Below, piece after piece: positions 12,101 to 17,066 of a DNA stretch of 23,704 nucleotides; the stretch's first letter is position 1; every line of letters starts with the position of its first letter. Made by a program: the position numbers and the translations under genes. The notes beneath the pieces were generated by a model. It worked only from the letters and a program-made list of their open reading frames with translations. It did not search any database and had not been told where the DNA came from. Source of the DNA: Chrysochromulina tobinii (taxonomy: Eukaryota > Haptophyta > Prymnesiales > Chrysochromulinaceae); assembly GCA_001275005.1 (NCBI GenBank), contig JWZX01002915.1:1-23704 (forward strand). The letters run 5' to 3'.

Positions 12101-13834
12101 ATGAAGAAGCGCACAGTCATGGCGGCGGTCTCGGCGCTCCTGAACCTCGCGCGCGGCGCGGCCGTTGCCTACAGCCTCTACCTCGCCGTGACCATCCGGC
12201 TCTTTGCCGTGATCAACTACGGCCGCGTGATCCACGAGTTCGATCCGTGGTTCAATTACCGCGCGACCGAGTACATGGTGGAGCACGGCTGGGACGCGTT
12301 CCAGGCGTGGTACGACACGAAGGCGTGGTACCCGCTCGGTCGGCACGTCGGCTCGACCACCTACCCCGGCCTGCAGCTCACCTCGTGGGCCATCTACGAG
12401 GTGGGCCGGCGCATCGACCCGGCGCTGACGGTGAACGACGTGTGCGTGCTGCTGCCTGCGGGCTTCGGCGCGATCGCGACGGCGTTCACGGGGCTCCTCT
12501 GCTGGGAGTGCACGCGCGATGCGAACTCGGCCGTCGCCGCGACCTTCTTCATGGCCATCCTCCCCGCGCACCTCATGCGCTCGGTGGCAGGCGGCTACGA
12601 CAACGAGAGCCTCGCGATCAGTGTGATCGTGGCCACTTTCTTCTTCTGGGTGCGTGCTCTGCGCTCGGCGTCGTCGTGGCCGTTTGGCATCCTCGCCGGC
12701 CTCACGTACATCTGCATGGTCGCCGCATGGGGCGGGTACGTCTTCGTCCTCAACCTGGTCGGCCTGCACGCGCTCGCTCTCGTGCTCTGCGGGCGCTACT
12801 CGCCGCAGCTGCACAAGGCGTACTCGTGTTGGTACGTGCTCGGGACGGCGGGGGCGGTGCTCGGTCCGGCGCGCTACCTCGTCGGCTGGCAGCCGTTCCA
12901 GTCGATGGAGCAGCTCGGGCCGCTCGGCGTCTTCGGCGGCCTCCAGCTGCTCTGGCTCTGTGAGCTCATCCGCGCTCGCCGTGAACGGCCGTACAACGAC
13001 GCGGAGCTCCTCGCCCTCCGTGCCAAGGTCTTCGGGGCCGCGGCGGTGCTCGCGGCCATCGGGATCATGTCTCTGCCACCCGGCTTCTTCGGCCCGCTCT
13101 CCGCGCGCGTGCGCGGCCTCTTCATCAAGCATACCAAGACAGGCAATCCGCTGGTCGACTCCGTCGCGGAGCATCAGGCGACCCCGTTGAGCATCTACTG
13201 GCAATACTACCACCTGTGCGCGATGCTCGGCGTGGCGGGCTTCTTCTTCAACTGCTTCCAGGTCCGCCACACTGAGTGCCCTCACTGGGAGATCAGGCCG
13301 AGCTCACTGGGAGATCAGGCCGAGCTCACTGGGAGATCAGGCCGAGCTCACTGGGAGATCAGGCCGAGCTCACTGGGAGATCAGGCCGAGATCTCTGATG
13401 GCCCTTGGTGCCTCCTTCTTCCAACTGCTTCCGAACGGATCGTCATACTGCCTGCTTGCCTCCCGATCCCCGCGCCCCTCCCCGCGCTCGCGACGGCGCC
13501 CCAAACCTGACGAATTCCGAATCCCACGCCCCTCCCCGCGCTCGCGACGGCGCTCCGAGCGCAGATGACGGACGCGAAGCTCTTCATTGTCGTCTACTCT
13601 CTGGTGGGCGCGTACTTTTCATCGAAGATGATCCGGCTGGTGCTACTCCTCTCCCCGGCTGCATGCGTCAACTCCGGCGCCTTTATCGGAGGTTTAGTCC
13701 AGATCTTGCTCGACGCGCACGCCGAGATCATCTCTGGAGGCGCGACGGCCACCGCGACGGCCACCGCGACTGCCACCGACGCTGGTGCAGCCGTGCGCGC
13801 CGGCTCGTCTTCGAGTGCGCCCAAGAAATCGGCG

Positions 13835-13873
<39 letters not shown>

Positions 13874-15299
13874 AAACCAAATCCGAAAAAGGGGACCAAA
13901 GAGGCTGGTCGCGCCGTACCGGGCGCCCGCCCGGGCACTGGCGCGGGCGGTGGCGGCGACGGTGGCGATGGAGATCCGACGGAGATCCGACGGAGATCCG
14001 ATGGAGATCCGACGCCACTCAGCTCGGAGTTGGCGGAGTTGCAACAGCTGTGGGAAGAGAACGTCGAGATGCGGCGCTCGTGCCCCTTGATGACCCTCGG
14101 CATGGTATGCATGCTCCCTTGATGGCTCCCTTGATTGCGTGCTTGATTGCTCACTGATGGCCCCCTTGAGTGCAGGTGTTCCTGCTCGTGCTGCTGCGCT
14201 TCTTGCCGCACTGCTTCGGGCTGGCCGAGGCGATCTCGGAGCCGCAGATTATGATGCGGGGGCGCGACACGAAGGGGAACACGATCGTGATCGACGACTT
14301 CCGAGAGGCGTACTGGTGGTTGCGGGACCACACGCCCGAGGACGCGCGCGTCATGGCCTGGTGGGATTACGGGTACCAAATCAACGGCGTGGGCAACCGC
14401 ACGACGATCGCCGACGGCAATACGTGGAACCACGAGCACATTGCCTTACTTGGCAAGTGCCTCACGTCCGATGAGAAGACGTCGCATGCAATCACGCGCC
14501 ATCTGGCCGATTATGTCCTGATTTGGACGACGCGCTATGCCGGCATGTACTCGGACGATCTCGCCAAATCTCCCCACATGGCGCGTATTGGTGCCTCGGT
14601 GTATGCCGACCGCATCGGGTACGAAGCGCCGCCCCAGCTCTCCATGGCTGATGGCCTCTGATGGCGTCTGATGGTCTCTGATGGCGTCTGATTGCGTCTG
14701 ATGGCCTCTGAGAGCGTCTGATGGCCTCTGAAGGCGTCTGATGGCGTCTGATGGCGTCTGATGGCCACTGATGGCCACTGATGGCCACTGATGGCCACTG
14801 ATGGCGGCCGTGTTGAGCTGGTGCGCATGGCCTCCCTCATCAGGTGCGATGCACCCCCATTTTACATGGACCGCTGCTCCCCTCACCTCTTATTGCATGC
14901 TGATGGCCTCCCTCATCAGGTGCGATGCACCCCAATTTTACATGGACCGCGACGGGAAGCCCTCCGACTGCATGCGCGAGTCGCTCCTGTACCGCATGCA
15001 CTCGTACCGGCTCGACCCCCTCGCTCCCAAACTCGAGCACTTTGAGGAGGCGTTCACGACGACTAACCGCATGGTACGCATCTACAACCTGATGACCACT
15101 GATGACCACGGATGACCTCTGATGACTTATTGATTGCCTCCCTCATCAGGTACGCATCTACAAGGTGCTCGACGTCTCCGAGGAGTCGCGTGCATGGCGC
15201 ACCGCCAAGGGGCTCGAGTGTGCGCGCGAGGAGTGCTACCCGCCCGCCCTCGCCGACACTCTCAAGCTCAAGCAATCCTTCCAACTCAAGTCGTCTTGA
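12101..15299 (+). CDS. STT3: Oligosaccharyltransferase catalytic subunit STT3
   Basis: STT3 transfers the lipid-linked oligosaccharide to Asn in N-X-S/T sequons in the ER lumen. My model is join(12101..13261, 13565..14104, 14176..14618, 14920..15073, 15150..15299), 815 residues, in the usual range. Exon 1 has the N-terminal membrane segment and the first acidic motif HEFDPWFNYR, then GGYDNES, many membrane helices and NPLVDSVAEHQ (the SVSEHQ loop). Exon 2 continues MTDAKLFIVVYSLVGAYFSS and MIRLVLLLSPA, then carries a Thr/Ala and Gly11-rich insert of about 120 residues in the cytosolic loop. Exon 3 has FREAYWWLRDHTPEDARVM, the sequon-binding WWDYGYQ (residue 629 on) and DLAKSPHM, matching the DXXKXXX(M/I) motif. 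Exon 5 starts VRIYKV, as in other STT3. Introns 1, 2 and 4 are phase 0; intron 3 is phase 2. Splice sites are inferred from frame and homology. Confidence 0.93.
13262..13564 (+). repeat. STT3 intron 1 with 22-bp minisatellite
   Basis: This 303-nt phase-0 intron (GTCCGC...GCGCAG) joins FNCFQ to MTDAK, as the STT3 family requires. It carries five tandem units of 22 bp, ACTGGGAGATCAGGCCGAGC plus TC, at 13284-13393. It also carries a 27-bp direct repeat (CGCCCCTCCCCGCGCTCGCG core) at 13473-13499 and 13527-13553. A single CTCTGATGGC at 13392-13401 resembles the repeat of the other introns. An ORF reads through the intron but encodes only the minisatellite. Confidence 0.8.
13741..14015 (+). repeat. 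Coding low-complexity block in STT3 exon 2
   Basis: Three repeats lie in one exon: a 12-bp GCGACGGCCACC unit (about 13741-13780, Ala-Thr repeat), a GGC run (about 13835-13867, eleven Gly), and a GGAGATCCGAC-type 11-bp unit (about 13969-14012). The GGC and Ala-Thr parts stay in frame with STT3. They fall in the cytosolic loop before the last membrane helix. Confidence 0.75.
14105..14175 (+). other. STT3 intron 2 (71 nt) with TGATGGC-type repeats
   Basis: GTATGC...GAGTGCAG, phase 0, joining MTLGM to VFLLVLL. Its interior has CTTGATGGCTC, CTTGATTGCGTG, CTTGATTGCTCA and CTGATGGCCCC, degenerate 11-12-bp versions of the repeat found in introns 3 and 4. Confidence 0.8.
14619..14919 (+). repeat. STT3 intron 3 with sixteen 10-bp CTGATGGC units and a duplicated acceptor
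   Basis: The 301-nt phase-2 intron begins GTACGA and ends CCTCCCTCATCAG. From 14648 to 14807 it is sixteen units of exactly 10 bp with consensus CTGATGGC(C/G)(T/A), few substitutions and no spacing change. After it come two copies of a roughly 50-bp segment holding the acceptor and exon start (CTCATCAG|GTGCGATGCACC), at about 14829-14876 and 14905-14952. The second acceptor (exon from 14920) keeps the frame; the first (exon from 14844) would shift it by one base. Confidence 0.85.
15074..15149 (+). other. STT3 intron 4 (76 nt) flanked by a 15-nt direct repeat
   Basis: The intron starts GTACGCATCTACAA, and the next exon starts with the same 14 bases; with the preceding G the repeat is 15 nt (15073-15087 and 15149-15163). 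Between them lie four 10-bp units (CTGATGACCA, CTGATGACCA, CGGATGACCT, CTGATGACTT) and the acceptor CCTCCCTCATCAG, shared with intron 3. Confidence 0.88.
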
Positions 15300-15795
15300 A
15301 ACGCCGTCGAAAGTCGCGCTCGTGACGGCGCTCGCGCGCCGACGCGGCTCTGCAGGTGCCGCGCGTGCCGACGGCTTTAGACGGCTGGGCCAACCGGTGC
15401 CGCCCGCTGCCACGGGGGACTGAGGTCTGTGCGAGACGGGGCACGTACGAACCGGCACGTCCTCGACACGTACAGTAACGCGACACGTCACACGACCGAG
15501 ATCATTATACACATCCACAGGGGCGTTTTCCTATAAAGACGTTATTTAAAACGAAAACAAGGACTCAATTAAACGTCTGTGAACAAACCGTAGGCGTAGC
15601 ACCGCCGGTCGACGCGTTTTGGTCTCGTTAGCGCGGCGGTCCGGGTCGGCGGCACGCAACACCACAAGGGCGAAGGGGCGGGGCGTCCCGTCGTTGCCAG
15701 TGATGATGATTGTGCGGGCTGCTCAAAAGGAACAAGTGTAGCGCGGCCGCCCAGCGCAGAACGCCCACGCGCCCCGACGCTCAGGGACGGCTCGA
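15300..15795. other. Convergent intergenic region between STT3 and the GT29 gene
   Basis: The 3' ends of both genes face each other here. The middle (about 15490-15585) is AT-rich, containing TATAAAGACGTTATTTAAAA and AATTAAACG, suitable for terminators and 3' UTRs. No convincing ORF is visible on either strand. Confidence 0.5.
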
Positions 15796-17066
15796 TCACG
15801 AGAAGAGGGTGAGCTTGCCCCTCGCCTGCAAGTCCCGGTAGATCTCATGCTCCTTCTCGAACCAGTGGACGCTCTCGTCGTTCTCCTTTGGAATCTCGAG
15901 AGCTCTCGAGCAGCTCGGCTTGGGCTTGCCGTAGTAGTGGAAGGGCTGGCACGTGTCGGTCGTGAGGCCGAAGAGACTCACCTGCGGCCATCGGTGCTCA
16001 TCAGTGACAATCAGTCATCATCAACGACAATCAGTCATCATCAACGACCCTCGGTGCTCATCAGCAACCATCAGTCCTACTCAAAAGATCATCAGTGCCC
16101 ATCAGTGCCGATAAGCGGCCATCAGTAGCATGGACGTGTCGGAGGCCCACAAGCCTGATTAGGTAAGGCCGCAAACAGAGCTCTGATTACCTTGCGGCAG
16201 AGCTGCAGCGCCACGACCACTGTGAAGAAGCCAGTCGAAGGGCGCATCTTGGAATTGCCACGCGGCCAGTCGCAACCCTGCTGGGTCGCCGCGCAGAGCG
16301 AGCCGAGGGCGCGGTGGTACACGCTATCGCTCAACAGGAAAATGTCGGTGGACGAGCGATTCCGTTCTCGCTCGCGGCCCATGTGGCGCATGATCGAGGC
16401 GACCGACTTGTCCGAAGCCGGCGTAATGAGACCTATGGGCCGAAGCGAGGCGGGTAGTTTGCGCCGCGCCTGCAAGAACTGGTCCACCATCCCCTCGACG
16501 CCGAAGAAGACATTCAGGTCCGTGCGCGTGCCCACTACCGTCTCGTACCCCTTAGTGAGCAACCAATTCGGGCGCAAGACGACCTCGTGCGCGTCGATGA
16601 GCGCGCCGTGCCGCCGCGCGAGAAGGGAGCCCGAGGCGCCAACCACGGCGCACGTGTCGCACTCGCTCTGGCCGTCGCCGCTCGCGCACAGGCCCTCGCG
16701 CAGCACTCGGCTGAGGTTCGAGGTGCGCGGCAACTGCGCCTCGAACCGCCCGAATTTGGAGGTCTCGAAGGGGTTCTCGTTTCGGAAGACGCGCTGCCGC
16801 TGCATGAGCTCGAGGCTGAAGATGAGTGGCACGGGCTCCGAAGCGGACGCGGGCCGCACGCCCGGCATCGAGCACTTGTACTGGCGCGTCTGCGCCTTGT
16901 AGCACATCTTGTCTTTGCAGGGATGCGCGCTGCCCGGGCAGGGCGGCGGCAGTGTCTTGGGTTTCTCAATCAGCGACTCGTTGAAGGGCACGACCCGCTT
17001 GTGCCTCTTCGTGCTATTATTGCTGTTGTTGAGCGCTTGGCGCTCTCGCGCGCGGCGGGAAGGCAT
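15796..17066 (-). CDS. GT29 sialyltransferase-like protein
   Basis: My model is complement(join(15796..15981, 16191..17066)), 353 residues, normal for the family. Sialyl motif L is at about residues 139-188 (CAVVGASGSLLARRHGALID, later VVLRPNW and GTRTDLNVFF). Motif S spans the splice junction (RPSTGFFTVVVALQLCRK, then VSLFGL). Motif III is FHYYGK, and motif VS is H-x4-E in HWFEKE. Cys139 and Cys290 correspond to the conserved disulfide pair. GT29 enzymes move sialic acid (or KDO-like sugars in plant relatives) from CMP-donors in the Golgi; donor here is unknown. The phase-0 intron restores motif S exactly. Met17066 is preceded by an in-frame TGA at 17084-17082, so the start is supported unless an upstream exon exists. 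The N-terminus is basic and Asn-rich with no signal anchor, unlike typical type II Golgi enzymes. Confidence 0.88.
15982..16190 (-). repeat. GT29 intron (209 nt) with sense-strand CTGATGG repeats
   Basis: On the minus (sense) strand it runs GTAATC...GATGGCCGCAG. It contains CTGATGGCCG, CTGATGGGCA, CTGATGATCT, CTGATGGTTG and CTGATGAGCA, plus two tandem 20-bp units GTTGATGATGACTGATTGTC. Spacing is often 10 or 20 bp. The motif is the one in STT3 introns and again lies on the transcribed gene's sense strand, although this gene is on the opposite DNA strand. Confidence 0.85.

Follow-up and report, generated by a model that had tools for sequence, protein, structure and literature searches.

Sense-strand 10-bp repeats in introns of Chrysochromulina tobinii: candidate tandem branch sites and introner-like insertions

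Introduction

Introners occur in diverse eukaryotes, a metagenome bin of Chrysochromulina sp. among them (Gozashti 2022, PMC9860276). The example from this bin carries its 5′ splice site, lacks terminal inverted repeats and is associated with duplications of 4 bp; some earlier introner families show duplications of 3–9 bp (PMC9860276). Mirusvirus introners are discussed in another paper (PMC12768974). According to two further studies, direct repeats of 4–30 bp (mean 11.4 bp) lie near the borders of 213 introns in a general survey (PMC11782384), and an intron of the potato RdRp gene was gained by tandem genomic duplication (PMC4974935). Here we analyze a stretch of 23,704 nucleotides, called the window below, from the haptophyte Chrysochromulina tobinii (contig JWZX01002915.1 of assembly GCA_001275005.1), in which the octamer CTGATGGC and its variants recur in the introns of two convergent genes, encoding an STT3 oligosaccharyltransferase and a GT29 sialyltransferase-like protein.

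In the present work, we examine the orientation of these repeats in the window and in the whole genome, and their relation to introns that resemble one another. The reading that we favor, with a probability of about two in three, is that the arrays are tandem branch-site units within introns, that introners make up a good share of these introns, and that the sense orientation is set by splicing. The unit would consist of CTGAY and about five further bases, repeated in tandem with a 10-bp period in spliceosomal introns. The introners would be short elements inserted into exons that brought their own branch site, together with a 3′ splice site whose last bases are CTCATCAG, and that relied for the 5′ splice site (mostly G|GTRNG) on a duplication of 13–47 bp of the target exon. 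The proposed reason for the sense-only repeats is that only copies inserted in sense could be spliced and hence survive, and that new array units would be copied from a branch unit already present.

Results

The genome holding the window comprises 53 Mb in 2,253 contigs (G+C content 64%). It contains CTGATGGC 10,432 times and the reversed word 910 times, and three consecutive units are found at 751 places (overlapping ones counted), compared to 0 for the reversed control. The window itself has 18 copies where 1.3 are expected, a number that is reached in 0 of 100 shuffles.

In order that the orientation should not lean on our own gene models, it was read from homology gaps, i.e. the gaps between neighboring exon matches to the kinesin, protein kinase, myosin and Cpn60 families. 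Eighty such gaps (40 kinesin, 32 myosin, 7 kinase and 1 Cpn60) were picked by eye from the listings, as a selection of the possible ones; 52 of them are interrupted by a stop or a frame change, and 28 are open coding inserts. The pattern CTGAT[GT][AG]C occurs 104 times in sense and never in antisense in the interrupted gaps, with 23 gaps leaning to sense and none to antisense, and it is absent from both strands of the open coding gaps. The exact octamer is found 37 times in sense and 0 times in antisense in the interrupted gaps. The initial annotation of the window had proposed that the orientation follows transcription, with equal frequencies on the two strands as the contrary observation. 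The rule extends far past the two host genes, and no such equality is seen where genes are callable.

It is important to point out how two related counts are to be read. The 60-base flanks of the interrupted gaps contain CTGAT[GT][AG]C 9 times in sense and once in antisense, and these bases are partly intron, because protein matches stop short of, or run beyond, the exact splice sites. The shorter CTGATG gives 90 sense and 11 antisense occurrences in the gaps (22 gaps lean to sense, 4 to antisense); the acceptor end CATCAG is CTGATG on the opposite strand. Genome-wide, CTGATGGC lies 5–35 bases upstream of CAGGTG at 733 places and in the reverse-oriented arrangement at 148, compared to 4 for each of the backward controls. 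By an eye count, 60 of 100 reverse-oriented places listed end in ATCAGGTG, like the unit of an antisense array, and part of the 148 cases may thus be internal to arrays.

The orientation was also scored with a gene finder trained on this DNA with the arrays masked on both strands. Six loci (L001–L004, L006 and L007), mostly overlapping others, were removed before the gene-model counts. Among the 93 arrays scored, 49 fall within introns in sense, 1 within an intron in antisense, and 43 in uncalled DNA. In the window, the word has a density of 6.8 per kb where an intron is called (sense), compared to 0.22 per kb in uncalled DNA. The corresponding values are 9.6 and 6.2 per kb in the loci targeted for their arrays (321 of 648 words in uncalled DNA), and 1.4 and 1.7 per kb in ten arbitrary 3-kb contig starts (18 of 21 words uncalled). 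The array sites in two loci (L036 and L037) adjoin called genes on the same strand. As a separate observation, GC donors are common in the self-trained gene models of 33 loci, at 28% in one run and 15% in the masked run.

We now turn our attention to the ends of the introns. The signature of what we call family A, a 19-mer formed by the 3′ end and the GTG of the following exon (TTGCCTCCCTCATCAG|GTG), has 494 exact copies, and a 29-base form of the same end occurs 38 times. Family B (L063, L078, L099–L118, L138 and L145) is free of arrays and was first met in two kinesin gaps. Its core GCATGCAAGTGCTCANCACGGC, followed by CCCCACAG or close variants, has 585 exact copies in the genome. The reversed control gives 0 for both families. 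The same sequence is found in introns at many unrelated sites, as in introners. In 33 loci, the family A end (at most 1 mismatch) is in sense in 22 cases, in antisense in 0 and in uncalled DNA in 28 of 50. Of 39 family B cores in the same loci (at most 3 mismatches), 22 are in sense, 2 in antisense and 15 uncalled. For 20 fetched family B copies, the sense coding score exceeds the antisense one downstream in 20 and upstream in 15.

Next to these elements, pieces of the adjoining exon are repeated. For each family, 20 copies on different contigs were taken from the first places listed and compared with a null of cross-paired loci; L115, which has no acceptor, was left out of family B. The start of the next exon recurs upstream with a score above the 99% point of the null (11.2 for A, 9.6 for B) in 13 of 20 copies for family A and in 14 of 19 for family B, the null maxima being 25.0 and 11.0, respectively. 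An unanchored alignment of the exon copies gave a poorer separation than this anchored one, 7 of 20 exceeding the largest null score. The 26 exon copies that were measured are 13–47 bp long (median 27), the longest being in family B, and 40–158 bp separate the paired copies; 22 of them start with GT, and a G precedes 22. The right ends are set by the alignment and may be off by some bases. L100, L113 and L115 are absent from the family B lengths, their acceptors not being matched, although L113 passed the exon-copy test, while L085, a doubtful duplication at 79% identity, is included in those of family A. Both families thus have duplications of the target-site type, with lengths beyond the 3–9 bp described for some introner families, and insertion of the elements would account for them. 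One family-B-like element (L145) lies between two exact copies of 33–34 bases inside a conserved myosin exon. At least one potential in-frame donor–acceptor pair is available in 51 of the 52 interrupted gaps.

Some further observations on the two families were made. In L052, L053, L073 and L109, units of intron plus exon copy appear by eye to stand in tandem, as if neighboring copies had recombined after insertion. On two contigs (C101 and C235), which are perhaps alleles assembled apart, the array hits are spaced alike, and so is one of two family B hits. Among viral contigs, the array and the family A end are found on 0 and the family B core on 1 (L159), where an acceptor-like CCACAG|GT lies downstream of the core. 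In prokaryotic genomes, seven stretches match three array units, and they look unrelated by their word counts (all seven) and excerpts (three).

Branch sites follow the pattern yUnAy, which is matched by the CTGAY contained in the repeat unit. An acceptor could be assigned in 38 of the 52 interrupted gaps, leaving 14 unassigned. In 28 of these 38 introns the last CTGA[TCG] lies 15–39 nucleotides before the acceptor, a distance for which there is no positional control, and 7 have no CTGA[TCG] within 60 nucleotides. The motif and the acceptor distance support the putative branch-site role in RNA that the initial annotation had suggested, as a fit rather than as proof of use. CTGA[TC] is more frequent in sense in 40 of the 52 gaps and more frequent in antisense in none. 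Since three or more units are present in 21 of the gaps, the bias holds also in array-free introns. The 10-bp period is seen in the CTGAY intervals of at most 45 bp, 109 of 189 being exactly 10 bp.

With this background, the five introns of the window can be described. The STT3 gene (12101..15299, plus strand by Pfam, E = 4e-60) has five predicted exons in our own gene model, two of which match PF02516 and PF21436. The GT29 gene (15796..17066, minus strand by Pfam, E = 6e-22) is identified by PF00777 and by homologues. Allowing at most 1 mismatch to CTGATGGC, the sense and antisense counts are 1:0, 2:0, 16:0 and 3:0 in STT3 introns 1–4 and 4:0 in the GT29 intron, and the claim that the repeats of STT3 introns 2–4 and of the GT29 intron lie on the sense strand of their own gene is thus confirmed. 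The shorter CTGAT is found in antisense as well, 2 times in intron 3, once in intron 4, 2 times in the GT29 intron and 5 times in intron 1. The occurrences in introns 3 and 4 arise from the acceptor-type end CATCAG read backwards, and those in intron 1 from a 22-bp array.

Intron 3 (14647..14919, plus strand) is probably of the GC-AG type, its donor being inferred by eye from the reading frame. Its array (14648..14807) consists of sixteen CTGATGGCNN units. The initial annotation had described sixteen exact 10-bp units, which is correct for the spacing and not for the sequence, as the exact octamer is present in 12 of the 16. Further downstream, the first 31 bp of the next exon recur with one mismatch (14844..14874, compared to 14920–14950) between two CCTCCCTCATCAG ends, and the intron closes with an end of the family A type (14904..14919, one mismatch to TTGCCTCCCTCATCAG). 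There is a second possible acceptor at 14843, the use of which would require the second element to be translated as protein or spliced separately. The RNA fold of the array is not clearly better than those of shuffled sequences (z = −1.37, 23 of 200 shuffles as good).

In intron 4 (15074..15149, plus strand), the first 14 bp of the following exon (15150–15163) recur exactly, as GTACGCATCTACAA, at the beginning (15074..15087), followed by CTGATGACC units and by GATTGCCTCCCTCATCAG at the end. The repeat assigned to this intron is accordingly present as the variant unit, while exact copies of CTGATGGC are absent. The ends of the element, CTGATGA...TCATCAG, resemble by eye a terminal inverted repeat. 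The GT29 intron (15982..16190, minus strand; other gene-model runs place its donor nearer) has YTGA units on the sense strand of the gene, mostly spaced by 10 or 20 bp as had been claimed, with just one exact octamer among them. The same claim of 10- or 20-bp spacing holds for intron 3 but fails for intron 2 (14105..14175, plus strand), whose units are 11–12 bp apart and whose 3′ end is GAGTGCAG.

Intron 1 (13262..13564, plus strand, predicted boundaries) contains the 22-bp tandem array and one CTGATGGC at 13395. A stretch near 13411 is by eye similar to the end of the upstream exon, so that this intron may be another insertion. Beyond the five introns, the window has two exact octamers (21496 and 22510), both within exons of our own gene model. 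Among the matches listed, the exact GT29 protein comes solely from metagenome sources, and the single named haptophyte is Prymnesium polylepis (58% identical over half of the query). Telomere-like AGGGTT repeats are present inside the window contig (4657–4688), and AACCCT repeats within one myosin gap (L150).

Discussion

The initial annotation had also suggested that the repeat spreads by a route coupled to transcription or splicing. Spread by insertion is supported for part of the introns, by their shared 3′ ends and the duplicated exon starts; the route itself is conjectural. A different explanation is that these are ordinary old introns without any mobility, in each of which a branch-site unit was expanded by slippage, with the seed setting the sense orientation. 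We consider this unlikely. The units indeed tend to be alike within introns and to differ between them (CTGATGGCCT in L061 and L142, CTGATGACCA in L136, CTGATTGACT in L053), and no A-type end is present in 12 of the 21 gaps with at least three units. The hundreds of shared intron ends and the exon copies at intron starts, however, call for insertion in some introns, and where the exon copy of a family A element is exact (five cases), four elements already hold 2–5 units and one (L091) holds none. Exon pieces are repeated in or beside introns, in some cases several times (L051, L052, L053 and L073, by eye), as would be expected if introns were gained by tandem duplication of an exon holding AG|GT, with no mobile element. 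This is nevertheless improbable, because the 40–158 bp between the exon copies share their core or 3′ end with hundreds of places.

Two other proposals concern the function of the arrays. With a 10-bp period, each of the three reading frames has a TGA within 30 bases, so that an unspliced transcript would run into an early stop, and the arrays could be retained for this reason. This property is a direct consequence of the unit and of its spacing (the 109 of 189 intervals above), but array-free introns are common, 20 of the 52 gaps carrying neither units nor family ends, and we regard the proposal as slightly more improbable still. Intron-encoded C/D-box small RNAs, put forward in the initial annotation, have on their side the CTGA and TGATGA words and, within the GT29 intron, two Rfam matches that lie below threshold. 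The Rfam scan of 13000–16400 gave, however, scores of 16.8 and 17.1 bits, compared to gathering scores of 45 and 40, so that no curated family reaches its gathering score there, and folding of intron 3 shows no clear advantage over shuffled sequences. This option is therefore rejected as having hardly any probability.

Several results weigh against the reading of the arrays as branch-site units of introns that are in good share introners. With the arrays left unmasked, the gene model places 51 of them in introns and 5 in exons in sense, 20 in 'exons' and 3 in introns in antisense, and 14 in intergenic DNA. We ascribe the antisense placements to the repeat being stop-free when read in antisense, and for this reason we place more trust in the homology gaps and in the run with masked arrays. 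The two antisense family B cores lie within a called gene (L013). For family A, the null maximum of 25.0 tops most of the observed scores, although the 99% point is 11.2. In the 52 interrupted gaps, which were not selected for family, exon copies exceed the 99% point of the null in 5 and the 95% point in 14, and recognizable insertions are therefore a minority of unselected gaps. An A-type or CATCAG end is present in 9 of the 21 gaps with at least three units, which means that the arrays are not confined to family A. Finally, array size shows no trend with the identity of the exon copies (rho = 0.05, n = 13), and hence none that would point to growth of the array with age. An array may have arrived with its element or have grown later, the units tending to be alike within introns and different between them.

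With branch-site arrays in introners, splicing would be what sets the orientation. As to the route of spread, the variable and long duplications speak against a cut-and-paste DNA transposon, whose fixed stagger would leave duplications of one length. We prefer, as an unproven inference, a route templated by RNA or based on repair, and it is testable through the same duplications, which are at odds with the fixed short ones of cut-and-paste elements. More specifically, and only as a doubtful suggestion, both families might spread via RNA intermediates that are copied into transcribed exons at staggered nicks, with family A keeping its 10-bp array. Such a route would give the variable duplications, the fixed 3′ ends and variable 5′ parts, and insertion in sense only. 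Family A would gain or keep extra branch sites as a 10-bp array, which would aid the immediate splicing of new insertions.

The origin of new spliceosomal introns is a long-standing question that the putative gains described here address. The genome appears to hold many intron gains whose exon copies have stayed in place, from which the insertion site, the recruitment of the donor and the subsequent decay can be read directly. The arrays furthermore constitute a natural series, in which the number of putative branch sites per intron runs from one to sixteen.

Target-primed insertion of the type of long interspersed nuclear elements leaves a fixed 3′ end, a variable 5′ part and target duplications of variable length. 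The families described here are alike in all three respects, and in their case the need for splicing also fixes the 3′ end. Introners as such are known, including those of the Chrysochromulina bin. Among the papers listed by our searches, outside subscription papers and supplements, no title or abstract describes such a branch-site array or, for a haptophyte, introner duplications as long as these. The comparison with three earlier studies is as follows. The potato RdRp intron likewise arose from a duplication, while here the exon copies enclose a repeated element that is apparently not exonic (PMC4974935). Border repeats are common to the general survey and to the present introns, those reported here being longer and tied to two element families in one genome (PMC11782384). 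As in introners, similar introns are found at many sites, the element bringing one splice site and the duplicated target providing the other (PMC9860276). Unlike the introner of the Chrysochromulina bin, however, the present elements carry the 3′ site, their duplications are long and variable, and family A has a 10-bp array of putative branch sites (PMC9860276).

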